NCBI GenBank assembly: GCA_038731975.1 | Contig: JAVYQJ010000007.1 | Span: 1-64,000 of the forward strand | Direction: 5' to 3' | DNA length: 64,000 bases | Source: Thermofilaceae archaeon | GTDB lineage: Archaea > Thermoproteota > Thermoprotei > Thermofilales > Thermofilaceae | Shown here: positions 4,854 to 11,481 of the stretch, one piece after another | Layout of the letters: every line of letters begins with the position of its first letter | Position numbering within the stretch: the stretch's first letter is position 1 | Notes under the pieces: generated by a model | Databases searched by the model: none | The model's input: only the letters and a program-made list of their open reading frames with translations | Told to the model about the DNA's origin: nothing | Translations under genes and position numbers: made by a program

Positions 4854-5813
4854 GTGGAGAAGACGATCTCAGTAGTAATTCTCTCCAAGAATAACGGAAG
4901 GACGCTCGGTTTCACACTGCTCAGTGTTTTAAAATCGAAGCTTCCCCCAGGTTACTCTAGGGAGGTTATAGTCGTTGATGCTCATAGTACTGACAATACT
5001 CAAAGGATACTGGATCGCTTTCGTCCCTACATTAAAGTAGTATACGATGAGGGCAGAGGAATCGGAATCGCTAGGAACATCGGTGTTTTAGCTTCGAAAG
5101 GCAGCTACATTTGTTTCGTGGATGCTGATTGCATCGTGGGCGCAGACCATTTCGCGAGAGTTGTCGAAGCCTTCGAGAGGGGGGCTGATGTAGTCGATGT
5201 GAAAGCGGGCGGTTCTCAGGCTTCGACTAAAATCGAAAGATTGGAGGAGTTAGTGTGGCGTTACGGCAGGGCTTACTCTGAAGAGATGATGAGAGGGCGT
5301 TGCTTCGCCGGAGGGGCCTTCATCGCCTTTAAGCGCGATGTTTTCGATCGAGTGAAGGGCTTCTGGTTGTACCCACCGTACGGTGCCGATGATCTCGACT
5401 TTAGCTTCCGAGCTTGGAAAGCCGGTTTCAGGATTAGTGTGGTGGAGGTGCCTGGAACTGCGAGCAGGTTCAGGAGAGGAGTGAGGGAGCTCATTAGGCA
5501 GCAGATAGGATGGGGGAGGGGCATTGCGCACGTAATAGCCAGGTACAGGCATGATCGCGACTACTGGAGATGCTATAAACTGAACTCCTTCCTCTACAGG
5601 GTTCTCGGTGACGCTGTTTGGCTCTACCCAATCGTAGCTGCCCTATTAGCACCTGTGAGAGGCTTTCAATTGAGCCTAAAGACACGTAAGCCGGAAATGT
5701 TCTTCTACTGGACCGTGCGTAGGTGGGCTTTCCTTTACGGCATTCTGAGCGAGCTGCGACGTGCCTTCCTTGCGCAGGGGGTGCGGGCGAAAATAAAGGT
5801 GCGTGAAGCTTAA
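4854..5813 (+). CDS. Glycosyltransferase family 2
   Basis: This 319-residue GT-A glycosyltransferase starts at GTG 4854, about 25 bases after the TATA-like GATAAAAG near 4826. The N-terminus TISVVILSKNNGRTLGFTL is the usual GT2 nucleotide-binding strand-helix. VDAHSTDNT follows at about 41-49 and the metal-binding DxD is FVDADC at 88-93. GGAFIAFKRDVFD and DDLDFSFRAW (the acceptor-side ED/DD region) are also standard. The C-terminal third is basic and partly hydrophobic and may lie on the membrane. It likely adds a sugar to a lipid-linked or surface glycan, together with the downstream GT4 enzyme. The exact donor and acceptor cannot be told. Confidence 0.9.
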   Translation: MEKTISVVILSKNNGRTLGFTLLSVLKSKLPPGYSREVIVVDAHSTDNTQRILDRFRPYIKVVYDEGRGIGIARNIGVLASKGSYICFVDADCIVGADHFARVVEAFERGADVVDVKAGGSQASTKIERLEELVWRYGRAYSEEMMRGRCFAGGAFIAFKRDVFDRVKGFWLYPPYGADDLDFSFRAWKAGFRISVVEVPGTASRFRRGVRELIRQQIGWGRGIAHVIARYRHDRDYWRCYKLNSFLYRVLGDAVWLYPIVAALLAPVRGFQLSLKTRKPEMFFYWTVRRWAFLYGILSELRRAFLAQGVRAKIKVREA

Positions 5814-5837
5814 ACGCCCAGCGCAAGTTGATCAACT

Positions 5838-6875
5838 GTGAAGTTGCTCCTTGCGTCGCCGCGCGTGAGCGGTATAGGGGGTGTCGCTCAGCACGTATCC
5901 AAGCTGCGGAGTATGCTCGAGGCCCGCGGTTTCACGGTTGACGTGGTATCGGTGGAGAACACGCCGCATGTGCCAGTGAAGGGGCTCTACAACCCCAGTT
6001 TCGCGCTGTTCTCCGCTCTCAAGACGCTGCTCCGCAACCTGGAGGGGAGGAGGTACGATGTAGCCCATGGCCACAACGTGCCATCCTGGCCCGCCATCAG
6101 GGTGGCGCGCGCGGAAGCCAGGGTTCTCACGCAGCACGGCGTCTACTCCCAGCAGATCGGGCTGCTCCACGGGAGGCTATTAGGTGAGTTGAGCAGGTGG
6201 TTTGAGAGGAAGGCTGTGGGAAGCGTCGACGCAGTGACTTGCGTTTCTCGCAGCACGTGCGAGTTCTACAGGAGCAGGGGCATTAACGCCATCTACATCC
6301 CGAACGCCGTGGACCTGCGGGAAATGCCTTCTGAGGGCTTGAGGATGTACGATAGGCAGGTCGTTTACGTGGGGCGGTTAAGCCGCGAAAAGGGCTTCGA
6401 CGTGCTCCTCGAGGCCGCTGAAATGCTGAACCCGGATGTACACTTGGTCGTCGTTGGATCGGGGGTGGGAGAGCTCGAGGAGCGCGCCCGCGCTCTCTCC
6501 CAGCGCTTGAGGAACTTCCACTACCTGGGGTATAAGCCGAGAGAGGAGGCGCTGAAGGTGATCAAGGGAAGCGATCTGCTCGTCCTACCGTCGCGTGTGG
6601 AGGGGATGCCCACCGTCCTGCTGGAGGCGATGGCCTTGAAGACCCCCATCCTCGCCTCGAGGATCCCTGGGGTCCTCGACGTGGTCGATGACACGTGCGC
6701 CGTTCTGATCGAGCCGGGAGACCCCAAGGGGCTCGCCGACGCCATAAACAGGTGCGTAATCGAATACCCGAGAACCTTCATCGAGGAAGCATTCAGGAGA
6801 GTTGTGGAGGAATTCAGCTGGGATAGAGTTGCCCAGGAGTATGTAAGGCTCTACGAGCGTCTTCTGGGTAGCTGA
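5838..6875 (+). CDS. Glycosyltransferase family 4
   Basis: This 345-residue GT-B enzyme begins at GTG 5838, 24 bases after the previous gene. A TATA-like AGCTTAAACG near 5807-5816 gives the leaderless spacing. Domain signs are a glycine-rich N-terminal loop (SGIGGVAQHV, 11-20), the hinge IPNAVDL (154-160), the donor-domain strand VVYVGRLSREKGFDVLLEA (175-193) and the E-x7-E region SRVEGMPTVLLEAMA (252-266). These define GT4 retaining glycosyltransferases of the GPGTF group, which use NDP-sugars. Together with the GT2 gene before it, it forms an intact pair for surface-glycan or N-glycan building. Confidence 0.92.
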   Translation: MKLLLASPRVSGIGGVAQHVSKLRSMLEARGFTVDVVSVENTPHVPVKGLYNPSFALFSALKTLLRNLEGRRYDVAHGHNVPSWPAIRVARAEARVLTQHGVYSQQIGLLHGRLLGELSRWFERKAVGSVDAVTCVSRSTCEFYRSRGINAIYIPNAVDLREMPSEGLRMYDRQVVYVGRLSREKGFDVLLEAAEMLNPDVHLVVVGSGVGELEERARALSQRLRNFHYLGYKPREEALKVIKGSDLLVLPSRVEGMPTVLLEAMALKTPILASRIPGVLDVVDDTCAVLIEPGDPKGLADAINRCVIEYPRTFIEEAFRRVVEEFSWDRVAQEYVRLYERLLGS

Positions 6876-6981
6876 GAGACAACTTTGACCTCTCGAGGGA
6901 AAACCTCTACGCTGCTGCGATTTACCGAGCATGCACCGTATCTTTCTTCATCTGGGAGAAGCGACGGATAGCAATATGCAA

Positions 6982-6999
6982 GGAAAAGTTTATATATAA
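6982..6999 (+). promoter_or_regulatory. Strong BRE/TATA promoter of the bactofilin-like operon
   Basis: GGAAAAG (BRE-like purine run) is followed by TTTATATATAA at 6989-6999, one of the best-matching archaeal TATA boxes in the window. Its centre is about 30 bases before ATG 7024, so the operon mRNA would be leaderless or nearly so. Confidence 0.75.
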
Positions 7000-7023
7000 A
7001 TTTTAGCCTACATACTTGATGCG

Positions 7024-7335
7024 ATGTGCGGCAGCGGGGAGGAGGAGTTGAAAGATTGGGTAAGAGTGCTCCGGACCTTAGCGAATCCGATAAGGCTGCG
7101 TATGCTAGCCTTGATCGCGGCGCGGCCGAGGCACGCGTACGAGCTTTCAAAGCTGCTGGGTCTCTCGTACCCGCTGGTGCACATGCACCTTCGGGCATTG
7201 GAGAAAGCGGGGCTCGTGGAAGGAGCGTACGTAGAGGAAGCCAGGGTGAAGCGAGTCTACCGGTTGAAGGACTTTCGGCTGGTGCTAGATGGGGAAACCC
7301 TCAGGAAGCTGGGTGAGAAGCTTGAGAATGGGTAG
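7024..7335 (+). CDS. ArsR-like winged-helix transcription regulator
   Basis: This 103-residue protein has the ArsR/HTH_20 winged-helix layout: LRTLANPIRLRMLALI (16-31), then ELSKLLGLSYPLVHMHLRAL (recognition helix, about 40-59), then the wing AGLVEGAYVEEARVKRVYRL. It lacks the Cys or His metal-binding helices of metal-sensing ArsR proteins. Its single Cys at position 2 is not in such a motif, so the signal is unknown. It is the first gene of an operon whose other members are a membrane coiled-coil protein, a 44-residue peptide and a bactofilin-like protein. It probably autoregulates that operon. It overlaps the next start by 8 bases. Confidence 0.85.
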   Translation: MCGSGEEELKDWVRVLRTLANPIRLRMLALIAARPRHAYELSKLLGLSYPLVHMHLRALEKAGLVEGAYVEEARVKRVYRLKDFRLVLDGETLRKLGEKLENG

Positions 7336-7708
7336 CGTTGTGGCCTCCGTGGTCACGCTGGCGGCGGTTGTCGCCGCCGCTCTAATGGCCGTCTACGTGC
7401 CGATCCGTCTCTTTGAGCTATCCGGAACAGGTGGGCTAAACATTATTGCGGCCGGCGTCTTCAGCGCCATAAGCATGATCGCGGGAGCGGTAGTGGCCTT
7501 CTTCGCGGTGGTTATCGGTGTTCCACTTTTGACAGGTGTTACCCGTAGCCCCGAAGAGAAAGCCGAGCTCTCCCTAAGGCGGAAGGAGCTTGAGGAGAAG
7601 CTGACAATGTACAGGGCCAGGCAGAGGGCTATGCTCGAGGAGCTTGACGAGATTAGGAGGGTGCTTGAGGAGATCCGTGACATACTCAAGGAGGGTGTTG
7701 AAGGATGA
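7328..7708 (+). CDS. Two-TM membrane protein with C-terminal coiled coil
   Basis: I place the start at ATG 7328, overlapping the regulator's stop, rather than at an in-frame upstream start at 7289. The protein then has 126 residues. Two hydrophobic segments (about 3-25 and 36-62) form a hairpin that anchors it in the membrane. From about 72 it becomes a charged heptad-rich helix ending DEIRRVLEEIRDILKEG. This end closely resembles the C-terminal helix of the 44-residue peptide encoded next. It belongs to no family I recognise. The likely role is a membrane anchor for the soluble partners of the same operon. Confidence 0.75.
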   Translation: MGSVVASVVTLAAVVAAALMAVYVPIRLFELSGTGGLNIIAAGVFSAISMIAGAVVAFFAVVIGVPLLTGVTRSPEEKAELSLRRKELEEKLTMYRARQRAMLEELDEIRRVLEEIRDILKEGVEG

Positions 7709-7839
7709 GCGGCGAGCTCAGGTACGTGGAGCTTTCGGACGAAGAGGTTGATCAATTGATACTGCAGAGGCTGCGGGAGATCAAGGAGCTGCTCAAGGAA
7801 TTGAGGGACGTGCTGAAGAAGGCGAGCGAGTATGGCTGA
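7705..7839 (+). CDS. 44-residue coiled-coil peptide
   Basis: A short gene starts at ATG 7705, overlapping the previous TGA in an ATGA arrangement, and ends at TGA 7837-7839, overlapping the next ATG at 7832. Such tight coupling on both sides argues it is translated. The product starts MSGELRYVELSDEEVDQLI and ends with an amphipathic helix REIKELLKELRDVLKKA, which lines up with DEIRRVLEEIRDILKEG of the upstream membrane protein. No known family is recognised. I infer a helix-pairing partner that could link the membrane protein to the bactofilin-like scaffold. Confidence 0.7.
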   Translation: MSGELRYVELSDEEVDQLILQRLREIKELLKELRDVLKKASEYG

Positions 7840-8506
7840 GCTCTTCGACCTGTACGAGAGAGCGCTGAGGACCGGCAAGGTTAAAGGTGGATCGGTGAGG
7901 ATCAGCGGTGCTGGCCGAGTCAGCGGCGGTACCTACGAGAGCATTACCGTCAGCGGCTCTGCGATCGTTGATGGAGATGTCGAAGCTGAAACCGTTAGGG
8001 TTGCCGGCTCAACCTCTTTCCGCGGCAGCGTAAGGGCAGGCGAGATCTCTATTTCCGGCTCCGCGAAGGTGGAAGGAAGCGTGAAAGGGGGGCTTCTAAA
8101 AGCGAGTGGCTCGCTGTCCGTAAAGGATGTCATCGAGTGCGAGGAAGCTTGGGCCGCGGGATCGCTGAGGGCACGATCCTTGAAGGGCAAAATCGTTCGG
8201 CTAGCTGGGGCATTTAAAATCGAGGATGAGTTAGACGCTCAACTCGTGGAGCTCAAGCTGTCAAACGACTCAAGCTGCCGCGCCCTCAGAGGGGAGGAGG
8301 TGAGCATCGAGCGCTCTGGGGGCACTTTCCGGATGTTCCTCAGGTTCACCCGCAGGCATCCCACCTTGAAGGTGGAGCTCCTCGAGTCGAAACTAGTTAG
8401 AGCCAGGGACGTTGTGATCGAGGGACGAATCAAGGCGGATAGAGTTGAACTATACGGTGAAGCTGCAGTAGCGGGAGTCGTCGAAGGAGAAGTCGTTAAG
8501 CTCTAG
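7832..8506 (+). CDS. Bactofilin-like polymer-forming beta-helix protein
   Basis: The 224-residue product is built of short repeats of about 16-18 residues with alternating G/S and hydrophobic positions: GSVRISGAGRVSGGTYES, ITVSGSAIVDGDVEAE, VRVAGSTSFRGSVRAG, ISISGSAKVEGSVKGG and so on. This is the signature of the right-handed beta-helix of bactofilins (polymer-forming cytoskeletal proteins), which self-assemble into filaments without nucleotide. The repeats are interrupted in the middle (about 140-180) and return at the end (VVIEGRIKADRVELYGEA). The N-terminal helix MAELFDLYERALRTG may bind a partner. It is translationally coupled to the 44-residue peptide. Bactofilins are best known from bacteria; an archaeal copy in its own regulated operon is notable. 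Confidence 0.72.
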   Translation: MAELFDLYERALRTGKVKGGSVRISGAGRVSGGTYESITVSGSAIVDGDVEAETVRVAGSTSFRGSVRAGEISISGSAKVEGSVKGGLLKASGSLSVKDVIECEEAWAAGSLRARSLKGKIVRLAGAFKIEDELDAQLVELKLSNDSSCRALRGEEVSIERSGGTFRMFLRFTRRHPTLKVELLESKLVRARDVVIEGRIKADRVELYGEAAVAGVVEGEVVKL

Positions 8507-8550: not shown

Positions 8551-8820
8551 ATGCGCGCATACGTGTTCAGAGTCGTAGTCCCCCGGCGCGACTGGGGGCG
8601 GGTTGAGTGGCTCGCCGAATTTTTGAAAAAGGAGAATGTCGAGCTGCTCTACACTCGGGTTGATCAACTGTTCAGCGAGAGAGCCGATCTGGATTCGATC
8701 GAAGTGGCCTTCCTGCTGCGGGGCGATGCGAGAGCTAGGAGGGAGCTGGAGAGGAGGCTCGCGGAGAGCCTTAGGGGGAGCATAGGCTTCTTCGTTTCGT
8801 ACGTGAAGCTGGAGGATTAG
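8551..8820 (+). CDS. Conserved-looking hypothetical protein, 89 residues
   Basis: The ORF starts at ATG 8551, about 28 bases after a TATA-like CGATTTTAACC at 8518-8528. The product shows an alternating strand-helix pattern: YVFRVVVPRRDWGRVEWLAE, a helix, SIEVAFLLRGDA, then a helix and GFFVSYVKLED. It could be a small ferredoxin-like alpha-beta fold, but no motif or family is recognisable. It converges on the next gene and overlaps it by 4 bases at the stops. Confidence 0.65.
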   Translation: MRAYVFRVVVPRRDWGRVEWLAEFLKKENVELLYTRVDQLFSERADLDSIEVAFLLRGDARARRELERRLAESLRGSIGFFVSYVKLED

Positions 8821-9603: not shown

Positions 9604-11481
9604 CTACTGTACTTTTCCGGGGGCGTGGGCTAGCCTAACCCACACTTGCATAGGCCCGGGCTCGCGGTTAGCCCAAGCGTAGTACGGTACCGCTGTGAAC
9701 TCCACCTCCCTAGCCCGCTCCTCCACCTCGCCGAGGCGCGCGTAGAGCCTCTTCTCCCAGCCGCTGGCTTCCAAGGCTAGCGCTCTACCCTTAACCACTG
9801 CCACGCCTCCAAGAAGGTCTGGGCGCCACTCCACTCTCATCTCAGCCGGTACCAGGGCTAGGTTCCAGACATCGTGGCTGTTGTCGGCCTGCTCCAAGCA
9901 GTAGACGAGGGGGCCGTACTTTATGGCGCACCTGCACGTGTTGTAGGTGACCCATGGGTGGCTTACGAGGAAGTACGGACCCATCTCGAATCTAAGCGCA
10001 ACCCTATCGCCCTCCCTCCACCTCCTCTTCACCTCAAGGAAGGTGCCCGGTCGCACTGGCTCCAATTTTTCCCCGTTCACCTCGACTTTAGCTGCACGAG
10101 TCCAGCCCGGGATTCTCACGAAGAGGGAGAACTCGTCGACACCCCGCGGCCTCACCTCGATATCGACCTGCCCATCCCACGGGTAGTTGGTGCGCTCGAT
10201 CAGTTCCACAGATCCTCCGTCAAGCTCGATTGTGGCTCTACTGGCTGCGTAGAGCACCGTGTAGATGCCCATCCGCGTCTTCGCGTAGAGCATCCCGGGG
10301 ACGTAGGCGATCAGCCTGGCGATGTTCGGTGGGCAGCAGGCGCACTCAAACCACCTCTGCCTCCTGTGCCTCCCCCTATCCGCGAGCGGGTTAACGTAGA
10401 AGTACAGGTCCCCACTGAGCGAGATGCCGGCGAGCGCACCGTTGTAGAGGGCCAGCTCCATTACGTCCGCGAACCGGGCCTCGCCCGTCGCTAGCAGCAT
10501 CCTCCAGTTCCACATCACGTTGGCAACGGCGGCGCACGTCTCCGCGTAGGCCCTCTCGTTGGGGAGCTCGTAGGCTTCGCCTATCGCCTCCCCCTCGTAC
10601 CTCGACCCCACGCCACCGGTCACGTACATCTTCCTCGTGACGAGGTCCTCCCAGAGGCGCTCCAACGCTCTGAGGAGCTCCGCATCACCGTCCTCCATGT
10701 AGACGTCGGTAGCACCGCAGCAGAGGTAAAGCGCTCTCACGGCGTGCCCTGTGATCTCGGTCATCTGCTTGAACGGCACGTGATCCAGGTGGTAGGGGCT
10801 CCCGCCGATCAGCCCCCTCCCCCTCCTCTCGATGAGGAGCCGGGCCAGCTCCAGGTACTTGCGCTCCCCCACTTCCCTGTAGAGCTCGACGAGCGCCATC
10901 TCGACCTCCGGGTGCCCGTCGACAGCCTCCCGTCTGCCGGGGCCGAAGACTTCGTAGATGTGGTCGGCGAACCTGACGGCAGCGTCGAGGAGGTCTTTTT
11001 CACCCGTGGTTCTCCTCCTCGCGACCGCCGCTTGGAAGAGGTGGCCGGCGCAGTACATCTCGTGCAGGTCGCGCAGGTTCGTCCACCTCTCCCCCTTCCT
11101 CTCAAAGGTGAAGAAGGTGTTCAGGTAACCGTCCCCATCCTGCGCCGCGATTATCTCGGTTACAGCGCGATCCACCATCCCTTTCAACCGGGCGTCATGC
11201 TCGTAAGCTAGGGCCCACTGGGCCGCTTCCACCCACTTGTAGACGTCCGAGTCGTTGAAGACGAGCCCCCTGAAAGGCCCCTTGATTTTACCGGCTGCCC
11301 GCCTGAAGTTATCGATGCGCCCCGTCTCCTCCAGCAGCTCGTACTGCGACGGCAGCGTCACATCGATCAGTTTTCTGAGGCGTGGAGCCCAGAAGCCGTC
11401 CATTAGCCTGACGCGCCCAAGAGGTACCGGCTCCAGCTTAGCGTAGGGGCTCTTCGAGGTATCAACTACGAGCTGCCGCAC
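9604..11481 (-). CDS. GH127 family glycosidase (beta-L-arabinofuranosidase type, DUF1680)
   Basis: This 625-residue protein fits glycoside hydrolase family 127, whose known members release beta-L-arabinofuranose using a Cys nucleophile held by zinc. The N-terminal (alpha/alpha)6 barrel shows ALAYEHDARLKGMVDRAV, DGYLNTFFTFE, MYCAGHLFQAA and the conserved ELPNERAYAETCAAVANVMW. The zinc/nucleophile site is FECACCPPNIARL. The C-terminal half is beta-sandwich. There is no signal peptide, so it acts in the cytoplasm on imported oligosaccharides. It starts at GTG 11481 with a TATA-like element about 26 bases upstream, divergent from the coiled-coil operon. The substrate in this organism is inferred only from the family. 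Confidence 0.9.
   Translation of the reverse strand: MRQLVVDTSKSPYAKLEPVPLGRVRLMDGFWAPRLRKLIDVTLPSQYELLEETGRIDNFRRAAGKIKGPFRGLVFNDSDVYKWVEAAQWALAYEHDARLKGMVDRAVTEIIAAQDGDGYLNTFFTFERKGERWTNLRDLHEMYCAGHLFQAAVARRRTTGEKDLLDAAVRFADHIYEVFGPGRREAVDGHPEVEMALVELYREVGERKYLELARLLIERRGRGLIGGSPYHLDHVPFKQMTEITGHAVRALYLCCGATDVYMEDGDAELLRALERLWEDLVTRKMYVTGGVGSRYEGEAIGEAYELPNERAYAETCAAVANVMWNWRMLLATGEARFADVMELALYNGALAGISLSGDLYFYVNPLADRGRHRRQRWFECACCPPNIARLIAYVPGMLYAKTRMGIYTVLYAASRATIELDGGSVELIERTNYPWDGQVDIEVRPRGVDEFSLFVRIPGWTRAAKVEVNGEKLEPVRPGTFLEVKRRWREGDRVALRFEMGPYFLVSHPWVTYNTCRCAIKYGPLVYCLEQADNSHDVWNLALVPAEMRVEWRPDLLGGVAVVKGRALALEASGWEKRLYARLGEVEERAREVEFTAVPYYAWANREPGPMQVWVRLAHAPGKVQ

Follow-up and report, generated by a model that had tools for sequence, protein, structure and literature searches.

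In this study, we analysed a 64,000-nucleotide stretch (hereafter the window) of the genome of a Thermofilaceae archaeon and found in it a four-gene operon encoding, in this order, a winged-helix (wHTH) regulator, a membrane protein with two transmembrane helices (2TM), a 44-residue peptide and a bactofilin. The order is kept in 31 complete loci spanning at least 12 families of Thermoproteota. We favor, with a probability of roughly one half, the reading that the operon specifies a membrane-tethered bactofilin scaffold, held by a two-protein helical anchor, often serving an ABC exporter and controlled by a local regulator. The parts are of known kinds, and their assembly appears to be undescribed. 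The first-pass annotation of this DNA knew of no described archaeal system of such layout. That statement stands for the open-access literature searched, in which no paper treating bactofilins together with Thermoproteales or Thermofilum was found, and not for all literature; paywalled work may exist.

Gene Layout and Promoter

The four forward-strand open reading frames, which had been annotated as one overlapping unit, were recovered at the same coordinates with their start-stop overlaps by sequence and ORF check, on contig 7 of an assembly of 1.85 Mb (95% complete). The regulator gene (7024..7335, 103 aa) is followed by the 2TM gene, for which the first-pass annotation had chosen ATG 7328 and hence 126 aa. 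Because the orthologues begin with MRSL(K/R) and share a 23-base overlap with the regulator gene, the start is more probably GTG 7313, giving 131 aa (7313..7708). The peptide gene (7705..7839) and the bactofilin gene (7832..8506, 224 aa) complete the unit.

A BRE/TATA-like promoter, AAGGAAAAGTTTATATATAAA, was confirmed upstream at about 6980..7000 (+), and its AAAGTTTATATATA core was found again 5' of most Thermofilaceae orthologues. The start codon lies about 24 bases downstream of this box, which predicts a very short leader. The TATA region (6985-7005) also forms a near-perfect palindrome, AAAAGTTTATATATAAATTTT, which is not clearly conserved in relatives; overlapping the promoter, it is a possible operator.

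Directly 3' of the bactofilin gene, an 89-aa protein without a Pfam or NCBIfam match is encoded (8551..8820, +). The gene occupies the same place in two same-genus genomes (L040 8174-8443; L058 5782-6057), is possibly a genus-level addition and may be co-transcribed with the operon. Judged by eye, we take two upstream genes (4854-6875, +) to be glycosyltransferase-like, and a downstream gene (9604-11481, -) is probably a GH127-type glycosidase, which would place the operon among sugar genes.

Conservation of the Four-Gene Order

Relatives of the bactofilin were found in 23 of 61 related genomes, and in their neighborhoods the wHTH, 2TM, short peptide and bactofilin genes kept their order, in nearly all cases with overlapping or directly adjoining ends. 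Among 398 Thermoproteota genomes, 34 were positive with a 2TM-protein profile, some of them in families outside the class, and the loci with this protein throughout the phylum again held the four genes in order; contigs from Geothermarchaeota and Bathyarchaeota added two further loci. Thus 37 loci were available, 31 of them complete, four cut at contig ends and not counted as complete (the Bathyarchaeota contig among them) and two real exceptions. The carriers include Thermofilum, Thermofilum uzonense (PMC4673724) and Thermoproteus tenax (PMC3189178). At one locus (L100), three operon genes stand in one shared reading frame.

The peptide, whose orthologues are 39-58 aa long, follows the same distribution. 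Its profile gave 33 strong matches (E <= 2e-16) in the 398 genomes, each in a 2TM-positive genome, and only one of the 34 2TM-positive genomes, G333, was without it. Together, the order in 31 complete loci and the peptide orthologues in 33 of 398 genomes argue that the unit did not arise by chance, and the first-pass expectation of the same gene order and of co-occurring homologues in other Thermoproteota was borne out.

The two exceptions differ in kind. In the same-genus genome G002, the bactofilin is a pseudogene (L058 5098-5740, several stops in each frame) and the wHTH, 2TM and peptide genes are intact, so that these three may act without a bactofilin. In G333, an assembly that is 76% complete (L096 / L112), the wHTH and 2TM genes form a single fused frame of 230 aa, and both the peptide and the bactofilin are missing. 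Fusion was rejected as a general feature of the operon: the 218-aa frames of T. tenax and its relatives are merely upstream frame extensions, and the G333 case is the one real fusion. A genome of the Thermofilum group without the operon (G014) carries a different short HTH-like gene directly 5' of a standalone bactofilin (L057 5151-6127).

The Regulator and the Two Helical Proteins

The wHTH protein is always encoded first, and its gene nearly always overlaps the 2TM gene. It matches Pfam HTH_5 (ArsR) at 1.3e-11, as do all 15 of the wHTH orthologues examined at their own scores, which agrees with the earlier assignment to ArsR-like regulators. The likeness is one of fold only, since the protein scores 42.4 bits against the NCBIfam metalloregulator model NF033788 (cut-off 55) and has a single cysteine (C2) in place of a metal-site cysteine pair; judged from its sequence, it is not a metal-sensing ArsR. 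Against PadR it reaches 20.5 bits, under the cut-off of 27, and seven of the 15 orthologues match PadR at E <= 0.001.

The 2TM protein belongs to no Pfam family, and its 29 members showed neither a recurrent Pfam or NCBIfam match nor a HAAS (DUF1700/DUF1129/DUF1048) domain. AlphaFold2 predicts three helices (residues 2-33, 39-70 and 75-125; mean pLDDT 92), in line with the first-pass description of two transmembrane segments and a coiled-coil tail. The charged N-terminus given by the revised start (MRSLR) and the tail fit a topology with both ends inside, in which the last helix of 51 residues (7550..7702, +; pLDDT about 98) would be cytoplasmic. Conservation is concentrated there: all 12 columns that are invariant among 15 orthologues from Thermofilaceae and near relatives fall in this helix and none in the transmembrane part, and the helix carries the motif Y-x-A-R-Q-x-A-x-L-E-x-x-D-x5-L-x-x-I-R-D-x-L (7610-7687, +).

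The 44-aa peptide, also without a Pfam family, has a KYxxLSDEEV head and, after it, a helix, REIKELLKELRDVLKKA, which resembles the 2TM tail. This likeness, already noticed in the first-pass annotation, proved strong. In register, the tails share 44% identity, as compared with 24.5% (maximum 28.4% of 500) in shuffles that preserve hydrophobicity class, and hhalign of the peptide with the 2TM tail gave a probability of 95% and an E-value of 2e-8 over 23 columns. The two sequences hardly differ in the later heptads and the final helical turns. They part in the first heptad, where the 2TM protein has E, E and D at positions 1, 2 and 4 and the peptide mostly has K, R and R/K. A helical bundle larger than a dimer is suggested by the wide hydrophobic face (a, d and g).

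Both tails also resemble designed coiled coils, and it could be objected that any coiled coils look alike. In the window genome, the peptide profile found, besides the peptide, only the 2TM tail (7628-7696, E 8.8e-5), and a search for the ARQRAM pattern gave no further copies of the tail there. Across the 398 genomes, the next-best matches down to E 0.001 were 2TM tails in about a dozen genomes, with three unrelated matches besides. A profile that, at genome scale, picks up hardly anything but peptides and 2TM tails is the strongest answer to the objection. A matching preference between the peptide and the 2TM tail of the same genome was not significant (p = 0.15), and we therefore claim no coevolution of the pair.

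The Bactofilin and Its N-Terminal Helix

The fourth protein, described at first as bactofilin-like, scored 32.1 bits against PF04519 (cut-off 27.9), and 20 of 25 operon bactofilins matched this family at E <= 0.01; as a control, Haloferax also gave a PF04519 match. Its AlphaFold2 model (pLDDT 88.8) consists of a helix at residues 2-13 and continuous beta structure from there on, which agrees with the predicted beta-helix. Foldseek of the model against the PDB returned top matches that were all beta-helix proteins, none below E 0.001, with BacA at rank 35, so a sequence-profile search was used for the relationship. Among solved structures, the family profile matched 6ria, a filament of the Thermus bactofilin, at 7.8e-6 and 2n3d, BacA of Caulobacter, at 2.2e-4. 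By profile and model, the protein is a PF04519 bactofilin with a beta-solenoid core related to the solved bactofilins. Toastrack domains gave no match at cut-off in the 25 operon bactofilins (DUF4097 weak in one, DUF2807 weak in four). The beta-helix part measures only about 150-175 aa in Thermoproteaceae and Thermocladiaceae, where several copies also fall below Pfam detection, which makes polymerisation in these families doubtful. Thermoproteota also have a second, widespread family of bactofilin-like proteins, about 400 aa long, which occurs without the operon in five recorded genomes and others.

Most studied bacterial bactofilins are thought to bind lipid directly via a short N-terminal peptide, and the route of archaeal bactofilins to the membrane is, to our knowledge, hardly known. 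In the operon bactofilins, the N-terminal helix (AELFDLYERALR; 7835..7870, +) follows the FDxYE-like pattern (F/M/L)-(D/E/R/K)-x-Y-(E/Y/L), in which the tyrosine (Tyr8) is invariant in all 25 copies and the solenoid is variable. The pattern was present in 25 of 25 operon bactofilins and in none of the 18 non-operon PF04519 matches of the phylum, three of which are nucleotidyltransferase-like. The N-terminus in the window, MAELFDLYERAL, has a charge of -2 and a hydrophobic moment of 0.63, and the operon copies have a mean moment of about 0.6 and are mostly net acidic. An amphipathic and mostly acidic helix is unlike MFSKKKK, the consensus of the lipid-binding N-terminal membrane-targeting sequence (MTS) in bacterial bactofilins; some bactofilins, according to the same authors, may reach the membrane through partner proteins instead (PMC12448750). 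We consider the helix a probable docking element.

The ABC Exporter Neighbor and a Proposed Function of the Operon

Eighteen of the 37 loci, from at least seven families, have an ABC ATPase and/or ABC-2 permease next to the operon, in differing arrangements. In the families of T. tenax and of G041-like genomes, both the ATPase and the permease are upstream and usually overlap the wHTH gene; the ATPase lies downstream at eight loci, that of Geothermarchaeota included; and the ABC genes are divergent in one genome of the same genus as the window's. Two of these neighbors gave a Pfam ABC_tran match. In the window genome itself, no ABC transporter stands beside the operon, the upstream neighbors being glycosyltransferase-like. 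Neither the frequent exporter neighbor nor the docking-type N-terminus of the bactofilin had been noticed in the first-pass annotation.

These observations can be joined in the following scheme. First, the 2TM protein would span the membrane twice, keep both termini inside and project its 51-residue helix into the cytoplasm. Second, the peptide would join this helix in a mixed helical bundle at the inner face of the membrane, as the charge-complementary first heptad and the wide a/d/g face suggest. Third, the bundle would capture the bactofilin by its amphipathic N-helix, in place of the lipid-binding MTS of bacterial bactofilins, and the docked bactofilin may polymerise beneath the membrane. 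Fourth, the scaffold would position a client, in many lineages perhaps the adjoining ABC exporter, and the wHTH protein would bind DNA and control the operon locally, presumably by autoregulation. The bactofilin assignment, the single unit, the matching tails and the membrane tether proposed in the first-pass annotation gain independent support from the phylum-wide gene order, the co-occurrence of the 2TM protein and peptide, the beta-solenoid model and the operon-specific N-helix; all contacts in the scheme are inferred. The missing within-genome preference of the tails, the bactofilin pseudogene of G002, the lack of an ABC gene at the window locus and the short beta-helix in Thermoproteaceae and Thermocladiaceae all count against the scaffold reading. 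Its fullest form, an undescribed and phylum-wide archaeal system in which the 2TM protein and a microprotein of about 40 residues tether a bactofilin polymer by its N-terminal docking helix, organise an ABC exporter and couple the exporter's state to the regulator, is offered only tentatively.

A less likely alternative is that the operon is mainly a membrane-stress relay, as proposed for bacterial HAAS-PadR-Toastrack systems: the 2TM protein and peptide would detect the state of the membrane, or the activity of the exporter, and signal to the wHTH protein, and the bactofilin would serve as a platform for assembly beneath the membrane. The constant first place of the wHTH gene and its near-constant overlap with the 2TM gene, the natural fusion in G333, the ABC neighbors and the decayed bactofilin of G002, beside intact wHTH, 2TM and peptide genes, speak for a relay, and published bacterial systems couple a wHTH protein, a transmembrane or helical signalling protein, a beta-helix and ABC subunits (PMC11237479). 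However, the fusion is a single case from an incomplete assembly that has also lost the peptide and bactofilin, neither HAAS/DUF1700 nor Toastrack matched at cut-off, and conservation is strongest on the anchor tail instead of at an obvious interface with the wHTH protein. Membership in the bactofilin family would equally allow a cell-shape cytoskeleton like that of halofilins or bacterial bactofilins, with the ABC neighbor incidental. Among the named carriers, several (T. uzonense and T. tenax) come from rod or filamentous genera, and halofilins shape Haloferax cells, as far as the account in PMC12186497 goes. Yet the operon is patchy in rod-shaped families, most sampled genomes of two families (f9 and f13) lacking it, and ABC genes adjoin it in at least seven families, more than incidental neighbors would lead one to expect; we regard this role as unlikely. 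Mere co-transcription without a complex, the tails being alike by generic coiled-coil convergence, could draw on their resemblance to designed coiled coils and on the absent coevolution signal, but it is the least credible of all in view of the register-specific identity far above the shuffles, the near-strict co-occurrence of 2TM protein and peptide, the selectivity of the peptide profile and the N-helix peculiar to operon bactofilins.

If the scaffold reading is right, the operon represents a conserved archaeal solution to membrane anchoring that relies on two as yet uncharacterised protein families, including a microprotein of 39-58 residues, a size that gene callers could miss. The recurrent exporter would tie a cytoskeletal scaffold to transport and connect the operon to bacterial envelope-stress modules built on other beta-helix proteins. 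Furthermore, the cultured carriers (Thermofilum uzonense and Thermoproteus tenax) and the small size of the parts make direct biochemistry feasible.

Comparison With Known Systems

Caulobacter BacA and Thermus ThBac share with the operon bactofilin the PF04519 beta-solenoid core, and their N-terminal tail is presumed to direct them to the membrane (PMC12448750). In contrast, the operon bactofilin has a mostly acidic FDxYE-like helix instead of MFSKKKK, and two helical partners are encoded alongside it; it lacks the cationic MTS, which is a common and not a strictly defining feature of bactofilins. Bacillus yhbDEF-type loci (BacE/BacF, PMC4627819) likewise have an HTH gene upstream of bactofilin genes, and a Bipolaricaulota relative has a small membrane protein between the two. 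These loci differ from the operon in their unrelated HTH (DUF4004) and in lacking the peptide, the conserved tail and the FDxYE-like helix. A beta-helix likeness described for SegB (PMC12284271) concerns SegB of Sulfolobales, which is unrelated to the operon.

The HAAS-PadR-Toastrack(-ABC) envelope-stress systems (PMC11237479) resemble the operon in combining a wHTH protein, a membrane or helical protein, a sub-membrane beta-helix and, frequently, an ABC ATPase and permease. The operon differs in being archaeal, in having a bactofilin for Toastrack and an additional coiled-coil peptide, and in scoring under the cut-offs for HAAS/DUF1700, Toastrack and PadR. In addition, the halofilins of haloarchaea are, like the fourth protein of the operon, archaeal bactofilin homologues, and they are located at the membrane, according to the summary of Curtis et al. 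(2024) given in PMC12186497.
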